Shown here: one piece after another, positions 8,739-54,081 of the stretch | How positions within the stretch are numbered: the stretch's first letter is position 1 | How the letters are laid out: every line of letters starts with the position of its first letter | Made by a program: the position numbers and the translations under genes | Assembly (NCBI GenBank): GCA_003762715.1 | Contig: RIBJ01000060.1 | Location: 1 to 54,478 of the forward strand | DNA length: 54,478 bases | Source of the DNA: Muribaculaceae bacterium Isolate-104 (HZI) | Lineage (GTDB): Bacteria; Bacteroidota; Bacteroidia; Bacteroidales; Muribaculaceae | Reading direction: 5' to 3' | The notes under the pieces: generated by a model | Told to the model about the DNA's origin: nothing | Database searches by the model: none | The model's input: only the letters and a program-made list of their open reading frames with translations

Positions 8739-10589
8739 TTATTCCCAACCCGGGTTCTGGTCAGCGTTGGTAATAGCGCTGTTTGCATTAATCAGACCCA
8801 GAGGAATAGGATAGAGGTACGAACGAGTCTCGAACACGCGCTCGTCGTTGCTGAACTGAACCACACCGACAAAAGCGGCGTCACGGTCACGGTTTATTTC
8901 AATGAAAGTAGCGGGAGTGTTAAGCTCGTCGATAGTGCTTGAGGGAGCTTTGCCGTTGTTTGCCTCGTAGCCGTATTTGCCCCAGCGGAGCAGGCTCCAG
9001 TAATAGTCTGACTCCCAGAATAGCTCTACCTGACGTTCAATCTTGTAGTCAGCCCATGCTTCGGCGAGAGTGGTGGCAGTAGAAGCGGGGAGCTGTCCGT
9101 GGATTGTACGTGTCTGGTTGAAAGTAGCCACAGCTTCTGTCACCTTGTTGAGTCTCAGCAATGCCTCTGCCTTGTTGAGCAGGGCGCGACCGTAACGAGT
9201 TATCACCATGTGATAGTCGGTAGCGGTGTTATGGAAGGGACGCGGAGTCATGTTGGTGTAGATGCTCTTACGGGTAGCATAGTTGGTGAGCGGAATATGG
9301 GCGTTTCCGTAGTTGGGGTTGCTCCAGCGTGTCATGTTGCCACGGTTGTACATAGATACAGTTTCGTTGTAGAAACGAGAACCGTCATGCAGGATAGAGG
9401 CATCGAAACGTGCGTCGCGGTTATTGTACATGAGGTCGCTTATGCTCACGCCGGGAGTGGTTACCTGGTATGCGGCAGCAACTTCGTCATCGTCTTTGTG
9501 CTCGATGAGACCAAATGCAGCAGACTGGCTTATTTGCTGAGTGTTGTTGAGCCACTGCGAGGTTTCATTCCATATCTTTGCCTTGCCGTCTGCCTCGTCT
9601 ATAACGAGATATGCGTCAACCAGATTCTGAGAGGGGGTCCAGTCAAGCCAGCATTCGAAGATGTCTGCCACATTGAACAGCGGTCCGCAGTTCATAGCCT
9701 CAAGGTTTGAATTCACAACATTGGCTATGAGTTTAATCTGATCAGTGCCGGAACAGGTTGTGTACTGCTTGTCCCAGTACTGGGCAAGAATGATTTCGGG
9801 CGAAGAGTAAGCTCCGTTTTCATTAAAGATGCTTTCGTAGTCGGGGTCGAGAGACGCTCCTGAAATAGCGTCTACAGCATCAATGGCTTCCTGATACAGG
9901 CTCTTGCCGTTCTGAAGAGAAGCGGCGTCGCCGGTGTAGGCGGCTGCGGTGAGACACACTTCCGAGAGGAACGCGTTACCGAAATTCTTGCTTAACGCGC
10001 CTGCCTTGGCGTTGGCGGGCAATCTGGGAATTGCCTCGCGGAGATCTTTCAGTATGTACGAATAGCTCTCTTCCACGCTTTTGGTGAGAGGCAGGTTGAA
10101 ATCGGGGTCATCGCTGGACAACACTTTGTCAACCCAGATGAATTTGCCGGTCTTGCGGGCGAAATCATAGTAAACCATGGCACGCATGAGCTTGCCGAGA
10201 GCCACATATTTCACCTTGTCGGTTTCATCGAGAACGGTGCTTGTTCCACAACGCTCGATAATCATGTTGCAGGCACGGATGATACCGAAGCGTCCGTTGA
10301 GCGATGCTCCGTCCCATGTGTTTTCAATCAGACCGCGGGCATTTCCGGGACATGCCGCACGACAGTTGATCATATTGGTTGTGAAATACACGTCTGAGGT
10401 GGGACAGTCGCGGTAGTAACTCATCACAGTGTTGTACTTACCGAGAACAAACGCCTCGACATTGGCGGCGCTCCCCCACACCAGATCCTCGCTATAGATA
10501 GCAGAAGGCTCTGTGTCAAGGAAATCTCCGCAGCTCTGAACCGAGAGACCCAGCGCCAGTGTTAGCGGTATGAAATATTTTGCTTTCAT
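8739..10589 (-). CDS. SusD/RagB-family outer-membrane lipoprotein
   Basis: 616 residues. Signal peptide with Cys20 in LSVQSCGDFLDTEP; the C-x3-LD-x-EP start is typical of SusD homologues. The long helical TPR-like body carries ARKTGKFIWVDKV and the C-terminal RRF-like segment ends in YPIPLGLINAN and NPGWE, again typical. SusD caps the SusC channel and binds the imported glycan or oligopeptide at the cell surface. It follows susC by 20 bases. No glycoside hydrolase, protease or dedicated regulator lies in the locus, so the ligand is unknown. Confidence 0.95.
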   Translation of the reverse strand: MKAKYFIPLTLALGLSVQSCGDFLDTEPSAIYSEDLVWGSAANVEAFVLGKYNTVMSYYRDCPTSDVYFTTNMINCRAACPGNARGLIENTWDGASLNGRFGIIRACNMIIERCGTSTVLDETDKVKYVALGKLMRAMVYYDFARKTGKFIWVDKVLSSDDPDFNLPLTKSVEESYSYILKDLREAIPRLPANAKAGALSKNFGNAFLSEVCLTAAAYTGDAASLQNGKSLYQEAIDAVDAISGASLDPDYESIFNENGAYSSPEIILAQYWDKQYTTCSGTDQIKLIANVVNSNLEAMNCGPLFNVADIFECWLDWTPSQNLVDAYLVIDEADGKAKIWNETSQWLNNTQQISQSAAFGLIEHKDDDEVAAAYQVTTPGVSISDLMYNNRDARFDASILHDGSRFYNETVSMYNRGNMTRWSNPNYGNAHIPLTNYATRKSIYTNMTPRPFHNTATDYHMVITRYGRALLNKAEALLRLNKVTEAVATFNQTRTIHGQLPASTATTLAEAWADYKIERQVELFWESDYYWSLLRWGKYGYEANNGKAPSSTIDELNTPATFIEINRDRDAAFVGVVQFSNDERVFETRSYLYPIPLGLINANSAITNADQNPGWE

Positions 10590-10609: not shown

Positions 10610-13600
10610 TTAGAAGCCGATATTGAGGCTCATTGTATAAACTCTTGAAACAGGATAGCTGTAGCCGTTTGCCGAGGGCGACTCAGGATCAAGACCCCAC
10701 TTCTTGGCGGGCGAGAAAGTGAGCAGGTTGTAGCCCGACAGGCTGAGGTAGCATTTTGACAGCCAGGTTGTTTTCTTAAGCAGCTTGTGCTTGAAGTCAT
10801 AGCCTATTGACAGGCTTTTCAGGCGGATGTACTTAGAGTCGACAAGCCAGAAGTTGGTGTCTACAAAGTTATTGCTGCCTGTCATGCCCGGCGAAGTGTG
10901 CTGGCGGGGATAAAGAGCATCGGTATTGTCGGGAGCCCAGATGTCTGTCTGGAATTCGTAGATAACAGGCAGATAGTTTGAATTACCGCCCATGAGAATT
11001 GCGTCAAGATACTTGTTGTAGTTGGTAGCTCCCTGCCAGAGCATGCTGAGGTTGAAGCCTCTCCAGCGCACGTCGGCGTTTATACCGTAGTTGCCTCTCG
11101 GAGCTGTGCCGGAACCCTGTCTGTACTGGTCCTCGCCGTCGATTTTACCGTCGCCGTTGAAGTCGTAGTACTTAAGGTCACCAGCCATGATGTTTGACGA
11201 GCCGTTGCGTTTCGGAGAGTTCAGTACATCCTCGTAGCCGGTATAATAGCCGAGATTCTTGTAATAGTTGCCGGTGTATGCAGCTACCTGAGTCGAACGC
11301 TTGTAGGGGTTTTTGAGGGTTGTCTCAGCCTCGTTGGGGTTGATGTTCCAGCGGTCGTCGTATATTGTGAAGTTTCCACCGAGGGTGTACTGCACTTCGC
11401 CGACATTGCCGTGGTAAAGAAGAGTGAAGTCGAAACCTCTGCGACGGCTTTCGCCATCAGACTTGACCATAGGCAGCGAAAGACCCAGAGGTGCTGTGTA
11501 GCCTACATTCGAGGGCGATGCGAGATAGCCTTTTGTGCTCTTGTAGAAGTAGTCGAACGAACCGGAGAACGCGTTGTTGAACGCCGCGAAGTCAAAGCCG
11601 ATGTTGAAGTCGCGCTGTGTGTACCACTTCAGGTCCGGGCTGGGCAGAGCGCCTTCAGAGAATGTCTGATACCACTGACCGCCGATGTACGCGCCGGTAT
11701 TGCTGAGTGAGTAAGAGGTCAGATAAGACCAGCGGTCAACATTATCGAGACCGATTTCACCGTAAGAACCGCGAATCTTGAACTGGTTGATGATGCCATA
11801 CAGACGGCTCTCTTTCCAGAACGCTTCTTCGGATACAGTCCAGCCGGCAGATCCTGAGAAGAAAGTGCCCCAGCGACCTTTGCGGGGAAGGTTGTCTGTG
11901 CCGTCGTGACGGAGCGAGAACTCAGCCATGTAGCGGGCATCGTAGTCATAGTGCGCGCGGAACACAACAGAAGCTCTGCGCCACTGCACACCGTCTTCCG
12001 CACCGTTCTGTGCGGTGCTTACGGGACCTGCACCAATCTGGTCGACATCCAGCACATACTGTGAACGGCTCAGCGAGTTGCTGTCATAACCGGAACCGGA
12101 AGCCTCGATACCGAGAGTAACCTCTACATTGTTCAGACCGAAGTCGCGGCTGTAGTTGGCAAGAAGCTGGGTGTTGTAGTAGTCGTAGAAGTTAGCAGTC
12201 TTGGAAAGAGAGGGCATGGGAGTTGACTGCGGCACGCCTTCCCAGTTGTATGCTGTAGCCTGTTTGTTCCAGGTCTTGTTTCGCTCGCTGAGGATAGCGT
12301 AGCTGGCAATACCGGAGATTGTGAGTTCCTTAACCCAGGGCACACTCCACTGCGCGTTCAATGTACCGCGCACATTGGTGTTGTTCTGCTTCACATAGCC
12401 GCCTTCGTCGGAGATGTCGATGAGGGGGTTGTCTACAGTACCGCTGTAGGGCTGACCGAACGGATTGACGGCAGCTTCCATGGGGCGTTTGTTCTGAATG
12501 TGCGACCACACATAGTAGTAGCTTGAGCTCGGGTCGCGGCGGTTTGTTATGTACGCTTCAAGACCGGTATTCACACGAAGACCGATAGACTTGAGGTTGA
12601 TGTCAATGTTTGTACGGGCGTTGTAGCGCTTGTAGGTGTTGGAGTTGGTACGGTAGATTGACTCCTGGTCATAGTAGCTGAGGGCTGTGTAGGCTTTGAC
12701 ATTCTCTGAACCGCCGGTTATTGTGAGCAGGTGACGCATTTCAGGAGCGGCATTGCGCATGGCAACCTTCTGCCAGTTTGTGTTGGGGTGGTTCTGAGGG
12801 TCGGTGCCGTCTAGGAAAAGCTGCAGGTCTGTATCTGTCCAGATGGGCTGCATGCCGTCATAGATGTAGCCACGGTTCTGATAGGTTGCAGCTGTCCACG
12901 AGTCCACTTTCTTGGGCAGGTCGGCGGGCTGTGAAAGTGTGTAGTTGAACTGATAGTCAACGTTCACCTTGCCTGCCTGACCGCGCTTTGTTGTAACGAT
13001 AATGATACCGTTTGCAGCGCGTGCACCGTAGATAGCGGTAGCGGAAGCATCCTTGAGCACAGACATTGATTCGATGTCCGAGGGGTTGAGGTTGTTGAAC
13101 TCACGCTGTTCGGAGATAATGTTGTCTATAACGAACAGAGGAGTGCCGCCGCCGCGGATTGAGATGCTTGAACCGGCGTCGAGACCTGTAGAGCTCTGCT
13201 GCACGATAAGACCGGCAGCACGTCCAGCAAGCGCCTGCGAGATGTTGGGCACAGGCACATTCTCAATTTCACTCGCTTTGATTACAGATACAGAAGATGT
13301 TGTTTTGCGTTTGGATATTGTACCATAACCTACAACAACCACTTCGTCAAGGTCAAGCACAGCGTCATCCAGACGCACCACCATGTCATCGCCTGTGATT
13401 GCCACCTCTTTGGTAATCATGCCTATGAACGAAACGACAAGTGTTTTTTCATTGTCCGGCACATTAAGGGTAAATTCACCGTCGATGTTGGTGGATGTGC
13501 CGATTGAAGGATTGCCTTTGCACTTGACGGTAGCTCCGGCAAGTGGATCATCTGTGGACGCTTCAATCACCGTTCCGTGCACGGTGCGCGCCAGAGTTAC

Positions 13601-13651
13601 TCCGGCCATGAGCGACAGACATGTCAAAAACAATAACAGTCTTTTTTTCAT
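10610..13651 (-). CDS. SusC/RagA-family TonB-dependent outer-membrane receptor
   Basis: 1013 residues. Signal peptide to about residue 21, then a carboxypeptidase-D regulatory-like beta-sandwich (GTVIEASTDDPLAGATV), a TonB box region (DEVVVVGYGTISKRK), a plug domain (ALAGRAAGLIVQQ, then SISIRGGGTPLFVID) and a 22-strand barrel ending in the aromatic strand YTMSLNIGF. It imports a substrate too large for porins, powered by TonB. First gene of the susC-susD-lipoprotein operon. The upstream 400 bases have no canonical TAnnTTTG promoter; they contain an 8-base G tract (minus strand) at 13806-13799, about 150 bases before the start. Confidence 0.95.
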   Translation of the reverse strand: MKKRLLLFLTCLSLMAGVTLARTVHGTVIEASTDDPLAGATVKCKGNPSIGTSTNIDGEFTLNVPDNEKTLVVSFIGMITKEVAITGDDMVVRLDDAVLDLDEVVVVGYGTISKRKTTSSVSVIKASEIENVPVPNISQALAGRAAGLIVQQSSTGLDAGSSISIRGGGTPLFVIDNIISEQREFNNLNPSDIESMSVLKDASATAIYGARAANGIIIVTTKRGQAGKVNVDYQFNYTLSQPADLPKKVDSWTAATYQNRGYIYDGMQPIWTDTDLQLFLDGTDPQNHPNTNWQKVAMRNAAPEMRHLLTITGGSENVKAYTALSYYDQESIYRTNSNTYKRYNARTNIDINLKSIGLRVNTGLEAYITNRRDPSSSYYYVWSHIQNKRPMEAAVNPFGQPYSGTVDNPLIDISDEGGYVKQNNTNVRGTLNAQWSVPWVKELTISGIASYAILSERNKTWNKQATAYNWEGVPQSTPMPSLSKTANFYDYYNTQLLANYSRDFGLNNVEVTLGIEASGSGYDSNSLSRSQYVLDVDQIGAGPVSTAQNGAEDGVQWRRASVVFRAHYDYDARYMAEFSLRHDGTDNLPRKGRWGTFFSGSAGWTVSEEAFWKESRLYGIINQFKIRGSYGEIGLDNVDRWSYLTSYSLSNTGAYIGGQWYQTFSEGALPSPDLKWYTQRDFNIGFDFAAFNNAFSGSFDYFYKSTKGYLASPSNVGYTAPLGLSLPMVKSDGESRRRGFDFTLLYHGNVGEVQYTLGGNFTIYDDRWNINPNEAETTLKNPYKRSTQVAAYTGNYYKNLGYYTGYEDVLNSPKRNGSSNIMAGDLKYYDFNGDGKIDGEDQYRQGSGTAPRGNYGINADVRWRGFNLSMLWQGATNYNKYLDAILMGGNSNYLPVIYEFQTDIWAPDNTDALYPRQHTSPGMTGSNNFVDTNFWLVDSKYIRLKSLSIGYDFKHKLLKKTTWLSKCYLSLSGYNLLTFSPAKKWGLDPESPSANGYSYPVSRVYTMSLNIGF

Positions 13652-13970
13652 GTTAATTTGTTTAGGGTTAAAAATTAGATTGGTTTGTGTGCATCAACAG
13701 ACCAACACGCCGACGCTCTGACATTTACACAGGGATGGGGTGAGCAAACGGACTATACTGTTCTTTTGTTGCTCGCCAAAGGTCTACAATAAAATCCACC
13801 CCCCCCTAATAATTAACTGAATTTAACTTTAAATTCCAAAATAATTAACTAATTAATCCTTCAAAACCCCCTCTTCATCCACTATTGCCAACAGTTATAT
13901 AATAATTTGTATAAATATTCGCTAAAATGTTTAACAGTTCATTCTTGCACTGTTTTTCAAGATTCCTACC
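13652..13970. other. AT-rich upstream region of the first susC, no gene
   Basis: About 320 bases. It holds an 8-base C run on the plus strand (13799-13806) in an otherwise AT-rich stretch, and on the minus strand a TTTG (13782-13779) followed after 19 bases by TATAGT, a partial -33/-7 match. No ORF or tRNA is seen. Confidence 0.6.
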
Positions 13971-42380: not shown

Positions 42381-44186
42381 TTACCATCCGGGGTTCTGTT
42401 CCCACAGACCTCCGGTGAGAGATATCATGCGATCCTGAAGCGGAAGCAGATAGTCGCGCTGCGGGTTGAACTGCCAGCCGCCTTCATAGCCGGCGGGATT
42501 CACCGGGTTGATGTAACGCATGGCATCGCCGGGGGTGCCGGTCAGATAAATGGTGTTTCTTTCAGGCTGGTCAAACACGAGAGTCGGGAAAGCGTCTTTG
42601 AGATTGCTGCCGACAAAAAGAGCTCCTTTGTGCCATTTGCCGATAATCAGCTCGTCTGCCGCAGCCCAACGGAGAATATCCTCAAGGCGTCTGCCCTCGC
42701 ACGCTTTTTCAACGCGGCGTTCGCGGCGCACTGCCTGAACATATTTGTCAAGCCCAGCGAAAGGATATTCAGGGTCTGTGTTGTACTCGCGGTCGAAATC
42801 TACATCGGGCATGCCTACACGGTCGCGGAGCGGATGCAGAGCCGAGATGATTTCGTTTGCATTGGCTGCGCCGTTAAGTTCGGCAAGAGCCTCGGCATAA
42901 TTCAGAAGCACGTCGGCATAACGGAACTGTATAGCCGGTGTAGCGCCTTTGAACTCTGCGTCAAGGCTGCCGGTATAGCTTATCTGCACATGTTTGAGCA
43001 GCGAGAAACCGGTAATGTTGTTGTTATAGGCAGATGTACCGATCAGCGGGGGGAAAGTGTAGTTAGGACCTTCGTCTGGACGCAGCTGCTGTCCGGGAGT
43101 GGCTACTGTCTGGGCAAGACGGGGGTCGCGCAAGGTAGGCAACAGTTCATTGCCCCAAACTTTCTGCGCAGCCTCGCGCTGTGCGCCCACAAAGGGTTTG
43201 CCGTCAGCTGTCAGATAGTCATCGACAAGAGATGCGGAAACTCCGAGGCTGCCGCCGCCCTGGTTGAGGTAGCGGTTGACATTGTTGCCGATTTCATCGC
43301 CGTCGTACTTTTTGTACCACAGCACTTCGGAGTTGTTTCCAAGATCGGTTGTCTCGAATATGACGCGATAGTCATTGTTCGGGTTGCCGGTGTTGTATAT
43401 TCTCCACACGCCGCGGTCCATCACTTCCTTGGCGGCAGCCGCTGCCTGAGTCAGGTAGTCGTTGATTTTTGCGTCGGTGACAGTCGGGTCAAAGAAGGGG
43501 TCATTTTTCGCTTTGTGATATTTTTCCCAGGTACCCTCAAAGAGAGCCACTTCGCTTTTAAGCGCCCGCGCCACATCGCGATGCACACGCATTGACGAGC
43601 TGTTTGAACGTTCGCCGAGATAATGTATTGCCTGGTCAAGGTCGGCAAGAATCTTGTCGGCAATTACTGTGCGGTTTTCGCGCGGCAGATTCATTAGCGC
43701 CAGGTCTGGGTCAAGAGGGGTCTCCACCCATGCGAGGCGTCCGTAGTCGATAAACATCTGGTAATAGTACCATGCGCGGAAATAATAGCCTTCGCCCACA
43801 CACTGGTTGTAAGCGGGGCTGCCTGCCTGATTGCAGTTGTCAAGGTTGTTAAGGAAGAAGTTAACGCGGCGGATGTATGTATAGTTGCCGAGCGACGCAG
43901 CGCTGCTCTTTGACAAGCGTCCGGCGAGACGCTGGTTTACAGACGGGCCTGTCATGTTGTCGGAATTGACATCGATGCCCGCAATGCCGACACCGCCTCC
44001 TGCCTGAACACCCTGCGCTCTTACGGCAGACTCATAGAACTGGTCGAGATAGCTGCTCATTTCGCCGGTAGTGGTAAAGGGCGTGGATGACGACAGCACC
44101 CCTTCGGGCTCGCGGTTAAGGTCGTAGCACGAAGTCAGTGCGAGACCCGCCACAAGACTGAATATATATTTTTTCTTCATTTTCAT
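42381..44186 (-). CDS. SusD/RagB-family outer-membrane lipoprotein (second locus)
   Basis: 601 residues. Signal peptide with lipobox LALTSCYDLNREP. Typical SusD features: helical body with GEGYYFRAWYYYQMF, RRERRVEKACEGRRLEDILRW (a family signature), a RMISLTGGLWEQNPGW end. It binds ligand over the SusC channel. It lies 7 bases after susC, so it depends on the same transcript; if the upstream receptor is out of frame (see 44194-47444), its partner would be missing at the membrane. No enzyme or regulator is adjacent, so the substrate is unknown. Confidence 0.95.
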   Translation of the reverse strand: MKMKKKYIFSLVAGLALTSCYDLNREPEGVLSSSTPFTTTGEMSSYLDQFYESAVRAQGVQAGGGVGIAGIDVNSDNMTGPSVNQRLAGRLSKSSAASLGNYTYIRRVNFFLNNLDNCNQAGSPAYNQCVGEGYYFRAWYYYQMFIDYGRLAWVETPLDPDLALMNLPRENRTVIADKILADLDQAIHYLGERSNSSSMRVHRDVARALKSEVALFEGTWEKYHKAKNDPFFDPTVTDAKINDYLTQAAAAAKEVMDRGVWRIYNTGNPNNDYRVIFETTDLGNNSEVLWYKKYDGDEIGNNVNRYLNQGGGSLGVSASLVDDYLTADGKPFVGAQREAAQKVWGNELLPTLRDPRLAQTVATPGQQLRPDEGPNYTFPPLIGTSAYNNNITGFSLLKHVQISYTGSLDAEFKGATPAIQFRYADVLLNYAEALAELNGAANANEIISALHPLRDRVGMPDVDFDREYNTDPEYPFAGLDKYVQAVRRERRVEKACEGRRLEDILRWAAADELIIGKWHKGALFVGSNLKDAFPTLVFDQPERNTIYLTGTPGDAMRYINPVNPAGYEGGWQFNPQRDYLLPLQDRMISLTGGLWEQNPGW

Positions 44187-47100: not shown

Positions 47101-47444
47101 AGACAGCAGCTGCACCTCTATGGGCTGACCTGTCCACTTTACTGTAACAGGCTTGCAGCCCACGAATGTGACGGTGATACTTGCGCCGGACTTTACATTG
47201 CTTAGGCTGAACACGCCGTCTATGTTTGTAGACGTGGCGTTGGTAGTGCCCTCCACTCTCACAGTGGCGCCCGGCAAAGGCTCGCCGTCGTCGTCCGTAA
47301 CTGTGCCGGTGCACTTGGTGCTGCTCTGCTGAGCGGCAGCTAAAGGCTCGTAACTGCCCCCCCCTCAATGGGTTGCGCCTGCATTGCCGAGGCGGCGGAG
47401 AGGAGAGTCGCTGCTAACGCTGCGGATAGATACTTTTTCCTCAT
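44194..47444 (-). CDS. SusC/RagA-family TonB-dependent receptor, reading frame broken after the signal peptide (possibly phase-variable)
   Basis: The start MRKKYLSAALAATLLSAASA (47444) gives a clean signal peptide with cleavage near MQA-Q, in step with a full promoter. This frame stops at codon 35, at 47342-47340. The mature receptor is intact in another frame: CTGTVTDDDGEPLPGATV sandwich, EEVVVVGYGVQKKVNLTG TonB-box region, plug, and barrel to the end LSVGLNINL (44194). The two parts meet at an 8-base G tract (47364-47357). Nine or six G would join them into about 1083 residues; restoring 13 bases missing from a nearby imperfect repeat would also do so. The length 3251 is not a multiple of three. 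The rest of the gene shows no decay. It may be off-phase, recently broken, or a base-count error. Confidence 0.85.
47357..47364. repeat. 8-base G:C homopolymer at the susC frame break
   Basis: C8 on the plus strand, G8 in the gene. It lies just after the signal-peptide cleavage region. A gain of one base or loss of two would open the reading frame. Confidence 0.8.
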
Positions 47445-47517: not shown

Positions 47518-47548
47518 CAAAGATAGAACACTTTTTTGCAGAAAGCAA
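47518..47548 (-). promoter_or_regulatory. Promoter of the second susC/susD operon
   Basis: Minus-strand TTG (47548-47546), 20-base spacer, TATCTTTG (47525-47518); leader of about 70 bases to the ATG at 47444. Confidence 0.88.
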
Positions 47549-48499: not shown

Positions 48500-49789
48500 A
48501 TGGAAAACAACGCAACAATCACAACCGGCTTCGCCGAAGGACAACACATTGTAAACGGAGTGCTCACAACACCGCTCGCCAACGAAGCGGCACCCGGACT
48601 GATACGGTCGGATGTCGACACCAGAGTGGCAAAACTCAAGCCGATGTCAACCCCCGTCGACTCAATCAGCCGCCTCATCGGAGCACGAAAAGCGAAAAGC
48701 ATGATTGTAGAGTACTACAGCGTAGACTCAAAGCAACCCTCGACAACGCTGAAATCAGCGGCATCTGTCTCTGACGAACAGCATTCGAGCGGCAAGGCAA
48801 TCTACATACTCAACACCCGCAACAACGCACTCTTTGCCGAAAGCGACACTATCCTGGTACCTGCCGACACCAAAGCGAAGTCTGACACCCCCGAACACGA
48901 ACCGATAATGCTCTATGTACTTGAGGCAAACCCCGGCTCGCCAATAAAAGCAGTGGCAATAAACAGCAATGACTCAGGCGAGATAAGACAGCTCAACGCA
49001 GGCACCACGCTCGTCCGGATGGGACGCGCAGCCGGAGAGCTTGACGTTCAGACACCCCAGTTCGAGGCACTCCCGCGCAAAAGCAGCAACTACTGCCAGA
49101 TATTCAAGGCTCAGGTAGAACAGAGCAACATTGTCAGACAAAGCTCTAAAGATGTAGGCTGGTCATTCCAGGACCAGGAAGAAGTGGCGATAGCCGACAT
49201 GAGAATGTGCATGGAAAAGAGCTTTGTGTTCGGATGCAAGGGCCGCCTGCCGCTTGCCGAACGAGGCGACGAGGTGATGTTTACCGAAGGTATATGGAAT
49301 CAGGCTGGCGACGAATACAAATATACCCCCGGCGACATAAACAAAATCGACCTCTCCGAACTGATGAAACAGGCATTCACCGGCAAAGCCGCCGGCAGCG
49401 CCAAAAAGATTCTCATCGGAGGCTCCACCCTTATAGCCACGCTCAGCAAACTTGACGCCCAAAGAGTGCTCTTTGCCAACGACAAAGTGACCCACTGGGG
49501 CATCGACTTCAAGGAGATTCACAGCAAGTTCGGCACACTGCTGGTTGTGTTCAGCGAAGTGTTCGACCAGTGCGGACACCCCGAGCAGGGAATGGTGCTC
49601 GACCCCGCATTCATGACAAAATATGTGTACCAGCCACTCAGAGCCGAACGCCTCGACCTCAAAAAATCCGGCACAAGAAACACCCAGGCGGTAGTGATAA
49701 CCGAAGCAAGCTGCCTTGTGCTCAGAAACCCCGGCGCCCACCTGCGCATTATCGAGTACACCGCAGAGGATGCCAACAAAACCTCCTGA
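48500..49789 (+). CDS. Phage major-capsid-like protein (HK97-fold, SU10/DUF5309-like)
   Basis: 429 residues. Resembles the SU10-type major capsid proteins: N-terminal GLIRSDVDTRVAKLKPMSTP and DSISRLIGARKA, the N-x2-QIFKAQVEQS segment near 195 with VRQSSKDVGWSFQDQE after it (long-helix region of the fold), a central KSFVFGCKGR, and a C-terminal YVYQPLRAERLDLKKSGT followed by INLR-like strands (LRNPGAHLRIIEY). No maturation protease gene or protease domain is adjacent. The gene is intact and its codon use resembles its neighbours. Second gene of the module; the next gene follows after 14 bases. A capsid protein is the best reading, by resemblance only. Confidence 0.78.
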   Translation: MENNATITTGFAEGQHIVNGVLTTPLANEAAPGLIRSDVDTRVAKLKPMSTPVDSISRLIGARKAKSMIVEYYSVDSKQPSTTLKSAASVSDEQHSSGKAIYILNTRNNALFAESDTILVPADTKAKSDTPEHEPIMLYVLEANPGSPIKAVAINSNDSGEIRQLNAGTTLVRMGRAAGELDVQTPQFEALPRKSSNYCQIFKAQVEQSNIVRQSSKDVGWSFQDQEEVAIADMRMCMEKSFVFGCKGRLPLAERGDEVMFTEGIWNQAGDEYKYTPGDINKIDLSELMKQAFTGKAAGSAKKILIGGSTLIATLSKLDAQRVLFANDKVTHWGIDFKEIHSKFGTLLVVFSEVFDQCGHPEQGMVLDPAFMTKYVYQPLRAERLDLKKSGTRNTQAVVITEASCLVLRNPGAHLRIIEYTAEDANKTS

Positions 49790-49803
49790 ACCGACAACAA
49801 GCA

Positions 49804-50376
49804 ATGAACACAACTCACGTCATAATGACTCCGGAGGAGATTCTCACCCGCTGGCGACTGCTACGCGGGTGGGAGCCCCTCTGCTCCGGACACATTTCAG
49901 TCACCGCCCACAATAGCGCTCTGGACTCACTGCTGATTGAACACATCAGAGCATGGTACACAAAAGCGCTCGCTACATACCCCCTCGAACAGCTGCCGCT
50001 GATGGAATTTGCCGCTCAGACCTCGCTCGACAGCTTCCGCACAGACCAATCGGCAACACTCACCCTGCCGCCGGGGTGTCTGCGCCCGGCAAGCGTGGCG
50101 CTCTCCACATGGCATCGCCCCGCCAACATACAGGCTGCCGATTCAGAGGCAGCGCAGCTTCAGCTAAACCCCTACACAGCCGCGTCCGACAGCCACCCCG
50201 TGGCAATACGCCTGTCACAATCCGCACTGTCGCTCCACCCCGCCGCGCCCGGCTCTGCCGTGGTATCGCTACTCGGAGTGCCGGCTCCTGAAAACAACCG
50301 CTTTGTCCTGTCGCCGTTTCTCATCGCCGACATGGCGCACAACGAATTTATTGAATCACTGAACAACACAATATGA
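49804..50376 (+). CDS. Putative head-completion/connector protein of the phage-like module
   Basis: 190 residues from the ATG at 49804, right after the capsid stop; a start at the Met seven codons later (MTPEEILTRW) is also possible. The N-terminal half is helical (LIEHIRAWYTKALATY), the C-terminal half beta-rich (QSALSLHPAAPGSAVVSLLG, then NRFVLSPFLIADMAHNEF). That layout, and its position between capsid and portal genes with an ATGA overlap to the portal, suits a connector or adaptor. No family recognised with confidence. Confidence 0.65.
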   Translation: MNTTHVIMTPEEILTRWRLLRGWEPLCSGHISVTAHNSALDSLLIEHIRAWYTKALATYPLEQLPLMEFAAQTSLDSFRTDQSATLTLPPGCLRPASVALSTWHRPANIQAADSEAAQLQLNPYTAASDSHPVAIRLSQSALSLHPAAPGSAVVSLLGVPAPENNRFVLSPFLIADMAHNEFIESLNNTI

Positions 50377-51746
50377 TACCTCGCGAACTAAACAACGCAT
50401 ACACCGCATGGTGCGCCGGAGCATCTTTGCGCCAACGCCGCAAAAGATTCAAAGACTACACCTATGGCAGACAATGGGGCGACATCATCGACCTGGCAAA
50501 CGGACGCCGGATAAAAGAAATGGACTTCGCAATAGAAAGCGGATTCAGACCCCTCACCAACAACCTCATACGTCAGATGGTCAAGACCGTTGTAGGGCTA
50601 TACCGCCGCGACTACGCCGCCCCATTCCCCGAAGCGCTCGCACACACAGCCGCCCGAAACAGTCTCGCCGAACTCGACGCACGCGCCCTTGAGGAATTTC
50701 TGATTTCAGGCTGCGCCATACAACGCATTGTGAGCGAACGGCGCACCGGCGGCAACGGAGTGTGGGTAGACAACGTGTCTCCCGAAAACTTCTTCGTCAA
50801 CCGCTTCTCCGACCCCCGCGGATGCGACATCGAACTTGTGGGTATGCTCCACAACATGAGCTGCGACGAAGTCGCTGCCCGCTTCGGCGGCAACGACCCC
50901 GACAGAAGGCAGCGGCTCAAACAGATGTGCCTCCGCGCCGCCGACAACTCCATTGTCAACACCGACAGCGCCGGCTTCTTCGCCGCGCCCAGCGGCAGAT
51001 GCCGGCTCATTGAAGTGTGGACACTCAGATCGCTGCAGGCAATAAAATGCTACGACCCGCGCACAGCATCCATATTTTTCGTTCCCGCAACACAGGCGCG
51101 TAAAATATCGCGCACAAACTCTCGCCGCCCGAAAGAACAGGCAATCGTGTTCAAGGCAATCGACACCGCCCGCTGGCACTGCACCTGGTTCGCACCCTCC
51201 GGCGAAACAGTGGCGGCGTACCTGTCGCCGTTCGCCCACGGCTCACACCCCTTCGCCATAAAATTCTACCCCCTCACCGACGGAGAGGTACACCCGTTTG
51301 TCGAAGACGTTATCGACCAGCAGAAATATGTCAACCGCATGATAACCATGATTGACAACATAATGCAGACAAGCGCAAAAGGCGTCCTCCTGTTTCCAGA
51401 AGACCGCAAGCCCGACGGATTTACCTGGAACGACATCGCCGACATCTGGAGCGACTGCCGGGGCATAATACCCTACAAAAGCTCAACCCGAACAAACGCT
51501 ATGCCCACACAGATAACAACCTCCGGAGCAACCGCCGACGCCCACAGACTCCTGTCCACTCAGCTCGAACTCATGGAACAAATATCCGGAGTGTCCGGCG
51601 GACTCATGGGCAGAAACATGCCCGGCAACGCATCCGCCTCGCTCTACCAGGCACTCGCCCACCACTCCACAACCGCCCTTTCCGACCTGCTCGGCACATT
51701 TGCCGACTTCATTGACAAACGCAACAACATAATAGCCACCACCTGA
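50373..51746 (+). CDS. Phage portal-like protein
   Basis: 457 residues. Portal-like features: an N-terminal helical segment with RKRFKDYTYGRQWGDIIDL, IESGFRPLTNNLIRQMVKTV, a central stretch FVEDVIDQQKYVNRMITMID typical of the portal stem region, and a C-terminal QLELMEQISGVSGGLMGRNM with a helix after it. In phages the portal is the dodecameric DNA gate at one capsid vertex and needs a terminase; none is encoded here. Overlaps the upstream gene by ATGA. The order capsid then portal is the reverse of most tailed phages. Confidence 0.75.
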   Translation: MIPRELNNAYTAWCAGASLRQRRKRFKDYTYGRQWGDIIDLANGRRIKEMDFAIESGFRPLTNNLIRQMVKTVVGLYRRDYAAPFPEALAHTAARNSLAELDARALEEFLISGCAIQRIVSERRTGGNGVWVDNVSPENFFVNRFSDPRGCDIELVGMLHNMSCDEVAARFGGNDPDRRQRLKQMCLRAADNSIVNTDSAGFFAAPSGRCRLIEVWTLRSLQAIKCYDPRTASIFFVPATQARKISRTNSRRPKEQAIVFKAIDTARWHCTWFAPSGETVAAYLSPFAHGSHPFAIKFYPLTDGEVHPFVEDVIDQQKYVNRMITMIDNIMQTSAKGVLLFPEDRKPDGFTWNDIADIWSDCRGIIPYKSSTRTNAMPTQITTSGATADAHRLLSTQLELMEQISGVSGGLMGRNMPGNASASLYQALAHHSTTALSDLLGTFADFIDKRNNIIATT

Positions 51747-51796
51747 ATTTACACCATTTAACACAAACGAGCCGTCAAACCGCACACCTATAGTTG

Positions 51797-51804
51797 TAAT
51801 TTTG
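51797..51804 (+). promoter_or_regulatory. -7 element before the small repeat protein
   Basis: TAATTTTG, 34 bases before the ATG at 51838, suggesting a separate transcript for the last two genes of the module. Confidence 0.5.
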
Positions 51805-51837
51805 CCAACATATTGTAAAAATTACCGTTTTTCAACT

Positions 51838-52236
51838 ATGAACACCAGACTACCGAAACTCACAAACCAGCGCGACCACGACTTCATGGCAGCATGTCGC
51901 AAAATCCAGCTCTCGCCGAAAGCCCGCACACTGACCTGCGCACAAATAGCAGCCTTGGCGGCAGCATCGCCGGCACCAAGCTACTACATCACATTCAGCT
52001 ACGCCCTCCGCCTCCTGAGAAAAGGCGACGCCTCCCTGTCATCCACCGCAGCAGCAAGAATGGCAGACATCCGCAACAAAGTACACCGGCTCATGCTCAC
52101 ACGACAACTCACCGACACCGACGCACTATCGCTCGTTCTCGCCGGACCGTCAAAAGCCGGATTCTACCTCACCCCGCAGACAGCCCTCAGACTTTTCTAC
52201 CGACTGCGCAACAAAAAACGCACACTACACGCATAA
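51838..52236 (+). CDS. Small basic protein with an internal duplication
   Basis: 132 residues, basic, helical. Two copies of one motif are visible: ASPAPSYYITFSYALRLLRK and AGPSKAGFYLTPQTALRLFYR, sharing P-x(2-3)-[YF]Y-[IL]-T-x3-ALRL, about 50 residues apart. It may bind nucleic acid or act as a small regulator of the module, but there is no recognisable helix-turn-helix signature. The start is the ATG at 51838; the frame is open a little upstream but lacks support. The next gene begins 27 bases on. Confidence 0.7.
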   Translation: MNTRLPKLTNQRDHDFMAACRKIQLSPKARTLTCAQIAALAAASPAPSYYITFSYALRLLRKGDASLSSTAAARMADIRNKVHRLMLTRQLTDTDALSLVLAGPSKAGFYLTPQTALRLFYRLRNKKRTLHA

Positions 52237-52263
52237 CCCATACACATTACAACCATTACAACC

Positions 52264-52695
52264 ATGAACACACCCGCAACAATAGCCATCAGCATAAAAT
52301 CAATCTGCGCCTCAATCTACGCACGCACAGCAATACGCCACACCCTCGACCCCAACCGACCGCCCATGCTCACACAACCCATGCAGCCCGCCCTTGAACA
52401 ACTCATCTGCTCCACATTCACCACACTGTGTCTTGAAACCGGAGCATCCCCCGCCGCACGCGACGAAGACATCCTCTCCACTACAATCCACCTCGTACCG
52501 CAGGTAAACACAGCCGCAATACGCGCCGCCTTCGAACGAATAATATCACTCCGCCTCCTCGCCGAAGCATACGCCTCTGTCGACCGCGCCTACTCCACAC
52601 AGATGAACACATTCGCCGACACCTCACTCGCCGCAGTCAAATCATTCACAACAACAGCCGCGCCACACCCCCGCAAAACACCTCACATCTTCTGA
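52264..52695 (+). CDS. Uncharacterised helical protein at the end of the phage-like module
   Basis: 143 residues, predicted mostly helical: IAISIKSICASIYARTAIRH, LEQLICSTFTTLCLETG, AAFERIISLRLLAEAYASV. Cys-containing but without a metal motif. Composition is Thr/Ala-rich, like the preceding gene. No family recognised. It ends 40 bases before the promoter of the U32 gene, so it closes the module. Confidence 0.65.
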   Translation: MNTPATIAISIKSICASIYARTAIRHTLDPNRPPMLTQPMQPALEQLICSTFTTLCLETGASPAARDEDILSTTIHLVPQVNTAAIRAAFERIISLRLLAEAYASVDRAYSTQMNTFADTSLAAVKSFTTTAAPHPRKTPHIF

Positions 52696-52735
52696 AAACC
52701 ACCCGCACAACACACACCCTCTCAGAAACATTTAA

Positions 52736-52743
52736 TAACTTTG
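52736..52743 (+). promoter_or_regulatory. -7 element for the U32-family gene
   Basis: TAACTTTG, 33 bases before the ATG at 52777; -33 box not evident. Confidence 0.6.
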
Positions 52744-52776
52744 CACACGCAACACAAAAACCACACCCCACCACAC

Positions 52777-54081
52777 ATGACACGCTCAGACTTTGAAATA
52801 ATGGCACCCGTAGGCAGCTTCGAATCCCTACACGCCGCAATCAGCGCAGGCGCCGACGCAATATACTTCGGCGTACAAGGACTAAACATGCGCTCACGCT
52901 CAAGCGCCAACTTCTCAATCGACGACCTCCGGACAATAATCGCCACCTGCAACCAGGCAGGAGTAAAAACATACCTCACGGTAAACACCATAATATACGA
53001 CTCCGACATGCAGCCCCTCCTCGACACACTCGACGCAGCCGCACAAGCAGGAGTAAGCGCCGTAATCGCATCCGACATCGCAGCCATAACCGAAGCACGA
53101 AAAAGAAACATAGAAGTACACATCTCGACACAATGCAACATATCCAACACCGCCGCAGTACGCTACTACGCCCAATGGGCAGACACAGTTGTGCTCGCAC
53201 GCGAACTCAACCTTGACCAGGTAGCCGCAATACACAACGCCATAACCACCGAACCAATACTCGGACCCTCCGGACAACCGGTCAAAATAGAAATGTTCTG
53301 CCACGGAGCACTCTGCATGGCAGTATCCGGAAAATGCTACCTCAGCCTGCACTCACTCAACTCAAGCGCAAACCGAGGCGCATGCGCCCAGATATGCCGC
53401 CGCTCATACACCGTTACCGACCGCGAGACCGGCGAATCACTCGACATCGAAAACAAATACATCATGTCGCCCAAAGACCTCAAGACAATACACTTCCTCA
53501 ACAAAATGGCAGACGCAGGAGTAAGAGTATTCAAAATCGAAGGACGCGCACGCGGAGCAGAATACGTCTACACAGCAGTCAAAGCCTACAACACAGCACT
53601 CAACGCAATCTGCGACGGCACATACACCCCTACCCTCATAGACAACATCGAAACCGACCTCGCAAAAATATTCAACAGAGGCTACTGGGACGGCTACTAC
53701 CTCGGACAACGCCTAGGAGAATGGAGCTCAAAATACGGCTCCAGCGCAACCCGCGTGAAACACTACGCCGCAAAAGGAGTGCGCTACTTCCCGAAAATAG
53801 GAGTCGGAGAATTCCTCATGGAAGACGGCACCCTCTCCGTAGGCGATGAAATAGTCATAACCGGACCCGCCACCGGAGCCATAATAACCACCGTCAGCGA
53901 AATCCGCGTAGACCTCAAACCGGTCGCCACAGCCCACAAAGGACAAAGCATATCCATACCGGTGCCCCAGAAAATACGCCCCTCCGACAGACTATACCGC
54001 TGGGAGCACACCGCAACAGCCACAGACACAGCCACAAACGCGCTACAGACACCACAGCCACAAACACCACCGAAAAAATAA
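52777..54081 (+). CDS. U32 peptidase-family protein (TrhP/YegQ-like)
   Basis: 434 residues. N-terminal TIM-barrel: MAPVGSFESLHAAISAGADA, then YFGVQGLNMRSRSSANFS. The family signature spans His176 to about residue 215: EMFCHGALCMAVSGKCYLS and SANRGACAQICRRSY, with four conserved cysteines able to bind iron-sulfur or metal. The C-terminal barrel-like domain ends in a Thr/Pro-rich tail. U32 members of the TrhP/RlhA type act in prephenate-dependent RNA hydroxylation (wobble uridine or 23S rRNA); peptidase activity is doubtful. The ATG at 52777 is preferred to an upstream in-frame ATG/TTG because of the promoter and family start (MTRSDFEIMAPVG). Third positions are very rich in A and C. Confidence 0.9.
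   Translation: MTRSDFEIMAPVGSFESLHAAISAGADAIYFGVQGLNMRSRSSANFSIDDLRTIIATCNQAGVKTYLTVNTIIYDSDMQPLLDTLDAAAQAGVSAVIASDIAAITEARKRNIEVHISTQCNISNTAAVRYYAQWADTVVLARELNLDQVAAIHNAITTEPILGPSGQPVKIEMFCHGALCMAVSGKCYLSLHSLNSSANRGACAQICRRSYTVTDRETGESLDIENKYIMSPKDLKTIHFLNKMADAGVRVFKIEGRARGAEYVYTAVKAYNTALNAICDGTYTPTLIDNIETDLAKIFNRGYWDGYYLGQRLGEWSSKYGSSATRVKHYAAKGVRYFPKIGVGEFLMEDGTLSVGDEIVITGPATGAIITTVSEIRVDLKPVATAHKGQSISIPVPQKIRPSDRLYRWEHTATATDTATNALQTPQPQTPPKK

Follow-up and report, generated by a model that had tools for sequence, protein, structure and literature searches.

Is a susC gene dead, misread or switchable when its signal peptide and its receptor body lie in different reading frames, on either side of a run of eight G? 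The gene in question is read from the reverse strand of the window, that is, the whole stretch of 54,478 nucleotides analyzed here (contig RIBJ01000060.1 of Muribaculaceae bacterium Isolate-104 (HZI), from a draft genome of 2.84 Mb in 80 contigs). The start codon, the tract, the two stops and the end of the body fall exactly where a preliminary description of this DNA had put them (Table 1), and its statement that signal peptide and body occupy different frames holds over the whole length of the open body. The body frame is closed by a TGA (47367-47365) directly before the tract. As read from the frames, a tract change of one unit moves the gene between a full product and an early stop.

Table 1. 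Positions of the features of the window discussed in the text
Feature	Position	Strand	Remarks
Signal-peptide reading frame, MRKKYLSAALAATLLSAASAMQAQPIEGG...	47340..47444	-	ATG at 47444, stop TAG at 47342-47340
G8 tract, proposed slippage switch	47357..47364	-	the two frames do not meet at G8
Mature SusC (TonB-dependent receptor) body, P0001	44194..47355	-	1053 aa, without internal stop
SusD partner	42381..44186	-	601 aa, 7 nt behind susC
Promoter-like TTG-N20-TATCTTTG	47518..47548	-	upstream of the window susC; -7 box found by scan
Second G8 of the window	13799..13806	-	147 nt upstream of the SusC gene 10610-13651

The preliminary description also held that everything else at the locus is intact. 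This stands for the receptor body, with its CarbopepD_reg_2, Plug and TonB-receptor barrel domains in Pfam, and for the adjacent SusD, likewise confirmed by Pfam; the relatives of the receptor in the PDB carry the names SusC homolog and RagA, and the pair has the features of a SusC/RagA TonB-dependent receptor with its SusD. The promoter is promoter-like only, resembling the -33/-7 type of Bacteroidota. On the 3' side of susD follow genes with biotin/lipoate ligase, queuine tRNA-ribosyltransferase (TGT) and LptF/LptG domains; with no hydrolase directly downstream, the locus is a lone SusC-SusD pair. An invertible promoter was considered and rejected, since a search around the promoter, between 47340 and 47960, for pairs of inverted repeats of at least 12 gave none. 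Right beside the putative switch (window 48500-54081), genes of phage type occur, among them an SU10-type major capsid protein (PF17236, phrog_26635), a portal protein (phrog_156) and a member of phrog_2895; they are a prophage or a phage remnant.

The 5' ends of related SusC genes were collected from two protein searches, one over 61 genomes (31 with a match) and one over 297 genomes (88 with a match listed), with relatives picked by score as the best matches (at most 13 candidates a genome in the first search and at most nine in the second). After merging of 17 duplicate rows, and with one gene (L148) removed beforehand for want of an N-terminal match, 152 distinct genes remain; 24 genomes of the window's genus supply 94 of them, and 48 genomes of other genera supply 58. 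Runs of at least eight G that lie no more than 135 nt from the start of the alignment are present in 24 of the 94 sampled genus genes, 23 of them coding (13 genomes) and one in the 5'UTR. In the other genera, two of the 58 sampled genes have such a run, one in the 5'UTR and one coding (in L308, an in-frame G8 that follows the signal peptide at a distance of a few codons). For coding tracts the difference between 23/94 and 1/58 gives p = 6.6e-5 (Fisher). Most sampled genus genes (71/94) have no coding tract, and of the 24 genus genomes sampled, just 13 contain one. The coding tract occurs at two sites, either directly after the signal peptide (among others in EGGGSY and QMGGG) or within it (the MPKRILAGLFAACLFLNGGGYLANAQ type). 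On a weakly resolved tree of 89 genes (102 columns; L141, L143, L144, L149 and L154 left out), the tract label needs 12 changes, against 20.7 in shuffles, and at least seven of the 12 are forced by supported branches. The coding tract is thus clustered on the tree, yet repeatedly gained or lost.

The preliminary description had asked how long the tract is in related strains. At the place of the window tract, homologues have G8, G9 or G10, a comparison that is between species. The 23 coding tracts are G9 in 16 genes, G8 in five and G10 in two. In four orthologues (G021, G001, G018 and G020, the last beginning at a contig edge), the lengths are G9, G9, G10 and G8, and the tract holds the sole indel of the aligned 5' stretch. 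Among the 23 genes, 14 are in frame and seven are out of frame; the remaining two are truncated by the end of a contig, L198 being in frame up to that point and L152 being out of frame when set against its orthologues. In-frame genes thus amount to 15/23, whereas one third is expected at random length (p = 0.0017, with orthologues included, so that the genes are not independent).

If a one-base indel had simply killed the window gene and decay had only begun, the closed frame of the window would be accounted for, and a relative of the window gene does look like a real pseudogene: in L061 (from 119; also L154), the tract is interrupted, the three glycines are kept without a tract (GGCGGAGGC), the signal peptide is in frame and a stop follows after 91 codons. 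However, eight of the 23 tract genes are out of frame and all eight bodies are open behind the tract, over 1041-1065 aa; the single stop counted in six of them is taken to be the one at the tract, where the body frame is closed. The dN/dS of the window SusC against eight relatives is low as well, 0.048-0.114 in six pairs (two are not computable), the ratios being rough because dS is near saturation. The preliminary description had named further inactivating changes in relatives with the same frame break as the mark of a plain pseudogene; open bodies and a low dN/dS were found, and we consider a plain pseudogene highly improbable. L244, a near-twin of L250, has its tract interrupted by one synonymous base, with the three glycines (EGGGSY) kept and the gene in frame. 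Further copies were looked for in viral contigs, where two stretches matched a pattern, neither being a relative.

Misreading of a true G9 deserves equally little credence. Homopolymers are error-prone, the assembly is a draft in 80 pieces, and elsewhere (G014:C27) a very long run of G at the end of a contig resembles an artefact. However, out-of-frame lengths occur in seven other genes from six other genomes (one of them, L152, near a contig edge), the sequences on either side of the tracts are unique and homologous, and the genome's own paralogue, L140, was read as G9. A lone pseudogene and a lone assembly error were both set aside on the recurrence of the tract in relatives at 8, 9 and 10 G. 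The paralogue L140, a second SusC in frame through its G9, has a signal peptide nearly identical to that of the window gene, and the two receptors are 39% identical. As a look at exchange of 5' ends between these two paralogues, nucleotide identities were compared: 81% in the signal peptide, 66% in the next 300 nt and 57% in the 150 nt of 5' flank.

How far such a tract departs from chance depends on where one looks. Runs of G or C of length 3 to 7 decay in the window as 767, 210, 41, 6 and 0. The whole genome has 29 G runs of at least eight (eight G8, 12 G9, six G10 and one each of 11, 12 and 13) and, as implied by the counts, 20 of exactly seven; the second rise at nine is not what the decay in the window would give. 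With dinucleotide shuffles, on the other hand, four G7 windows are observed in the window against 5.0 expected; there is no excess, and the genome-wide excess of G runs therefore depends on the null model. The evidence from the position of the tract, unlike that excess, is independent of the null model. In the bodies of the 94 genus genes (115,845 nt, for many genes about 300 nt only), there are no homopolymers of at least eight and the longest G run does not exceed five; the codon GGG makes up 53 of 4071 glycine codons (1.3%). The 5' windows (16,661 nt) hold 21 runs of at least eight G and one of at least eight T. One G8 in a window of 54 kb is not beyond chance, but where it lies and how it recurs among relatives go far beyond chance, and a mononucleotide tract in excess of chance is what these 5' coding regions contain. 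Together with the tract at the 5' end, the switching of frame by one unit, the length variation between homologues and the intact body, the sequence features of a contingency locus are present. As an explanation, a chance tract, like a plain pseudogene, is very unlikely. In the same genome, 16 of the 21 runs of at least nine G lie outside called ORFs, so that frameshifting is not the sole role of such runs. Another run, a G8 at L043 4001-4008, lies within an N6/N4 DNA methylase gene, which, if the run varies in length, could be a phasevarion.

The G tract of the window is most probably a simple-sequence contingency switch in a coding region, acting by slipped-strand mispairing. Slippage as an on/off switch is a likely explanation because relatives keep the run at 8, 9 or 10 G before an intact receptor, in and out of frame, and the phase variation put forward in the preliminary description gains from these comparisons of sequence. 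During replication, the tract would gain or lose a G. At the in-frame length (nine G in most genes), signal peptide and receptor would form one protein, and the SusC-SusD pair would be produced and exported; at other lengths, ribosomes would meet a stop between a few and some tens of codons past the tract, no receptor would be exported, and the product would be a short exported peptide at most. The window gene would have been caught out of frame. The glycines encoded by its tract fall between the signal peptide and the first recognized domain, where they are likely tolerated. We infer that slippage is the source of the length changes, that these are reversible, that receptor and export are lost when the gene is out of frame, and that there is a benefit, which might be evasion of phage or antibodies, or bet-hedging with respect to nutrients.

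Alternatively, the G8 allele may not be silent. With -1 ribosomal frameshifting on G-GGG-GGG, or with transcriptional slippage, it would yield some full-length SusC and the tract would tune the level, and a -1 slip on G8 would, judging from the frames, enter the body frame. A frameshift-stimulating RNA structure was sought behind the window tract and not found, the RNA there being not unusually stable (z = 0.51); moreover, a -1 slip is of no use to the G10 alleles, and 15 of the 23 genes need no recoding at all. Such tuning is thus improbable, though a little less so than a dead gene or a misread one.

The tracts of the genus are not restricted to coding regions. In genus material, 81 distinct tracts of at least eight G were collected, from loci partly picked for their tracts and with some tracts mutually orthologous. 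TA follows directly in 57 of them, and in 50 of the 65 with at least nine G; after shorter runs, TA is found in 8% of 853 G4, 10% of 155 G5 and 23% of 22 G6. Within 54 nt downstream, 26 of the 81 tracts have a TAnnTTTG box, at 18-22 nt (16 tracts), 28-30 (3), 38-39 (6) or 47 (1). Shuffled flanks give a mean of 0.31 boxes (largest 3) at 18-23 nt and of 2.9 (largest 7) at any place. The spacing between tract and box steps by about ten nucleotides, one helical turn, and from this spacing the promoter tract of several SusC genes sits about where the -33 element is expected.

The run of nine G with TA could then be mainly a protein-binding or promoter element, with the coding copies being regulatory sites and their frame changes accidental. 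The frequency of TA (50 of 65 tracts with at least nine G) and the spacing (18-22, 28-30 or 38-39 nt upstream of the box in 25 of the 26 tracts with a box in reach) speak for this. But eight of the 23 coding tracts are out of frame, several coding tracts are without the TA (the window tract is followed by CA), and a fixed site would stay at one length. We regard this explanation as unlikely, if less so than recoding, and retain the coding switch for the window gene.

Tracts of G8-G10, mostly followed by TA, are found upstream of susC in L137, L156, L162, L164, L179, L181, L186, L189, L193, L203 and others; their 3' end lies 18-22 nt (in others 28-30, 38-39 or 47 nt) upstream of a TAnnTTTG box. 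These promoter-side tracts are a possible transcriptional counterpart of the coding switch. L156, the match nearest to the window gene within G008 (74% identity), carries its tract at the promoter instead of in the coding region, and L197 has both a coding and an upstream tract, the latter without an exact -7 box. In the window, the second G8 precedes another SusC-SusD pair (10610-13651 and 8739-10589); no exact TAnnTTTG box was found behind it, and it is a possible candidate for a promoter-side tract of this wider class. Tracts of C9-C10, with the G on the other strand, are present upstream of large ORFs in L041, L049, L050, L052, L053 and L054, with start codons uncertain for some; the ORFs of L041, L049 and L050 have chitobiase C-terminal/Fn3_assoc domains.

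Counts of G9TA, from genomes that vary in size and completeness, are 226 in 34 genomes of the genus (median 5; the pattern read backwards gives 111), 78 in 15 genomes of other genera of the family and 44 in 32 genomes of other families of the order (median 1). Poly-G runs like that at the contig end of G014 (G014:C27:63-117), perhaps a sequencing artefact, inflate the raw counts of G9 windows in some genomes. We propose, tentatively and with some doubt, that Muribaculaceae may possess a poly-G phasome that extends across the family and is based on a single element (at least nine G, then TA). Placed in or behind the signal peptide, this element would serve as a translational switch; placed upstream of the -7 box, with helical phasing of the distance, it would serve as a transcriptional one, possibly via a factor dedicated to binding poly-G. 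The same SusC lineage would be able to use either.

Muribaculaceae are abundant and poorly understood bacteria of the mouse gut. Among the titles listed in searches of open-licence literature, which includes no preprints and few subscription papers and gives weak evidence of absence, none is on a poly-G switch of SusC in Bacteroidales. In this order, SusC is known to vary in phase through DNA inversion. If true, a coding poly-G switch over many SusC genes would give the cells another way, independent of inversion, to make their surfaces heterogeneous, one that programs searching for inversions would miss; SusC genes that seem frameshifted would in some cases be live.

In promoter-tract phase variation, for example of Neisseria porA or fetA, the tract lies between -35 and -10. 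A number of SusC genes of the genus likewise have homopolymer tracts close to promoter elements before them; unlike in the porA/fetA type, the tract ends upstream of the putative -7 box, at a distance of about 18-22 nt or of 10 or 20 nt beyond that.

For coding tracts, the nearest parallel is in the haemoglobin receptor systems hmbR and hpuA of Neisseria meningitidis, where a poly-G in the reading frame switches expression when its length changes (PMC3786947). In both cases, the poly-G lies inside a gene of an outer-membrane uptake system. Neisseria belongs to another phylum and its receptors to another class than SusC/SusD, and in Muribaculaceae the tract is in or just behind the signal peptide, in several SusC clades, with a switch predicted from genomes. 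In Bacteroides fragilis, the SusC/SusD receptors, also of a gut member of the Bacteroidales, are reported to be turned on and off by site-specific inversion (Nakayama-Imaohji 2009, cited in the review PMC11868660). There a DNA invertase acts, whereas at the window locus, with its promoter free of surrounding inverted repeats, it is the length of the tract that would change.
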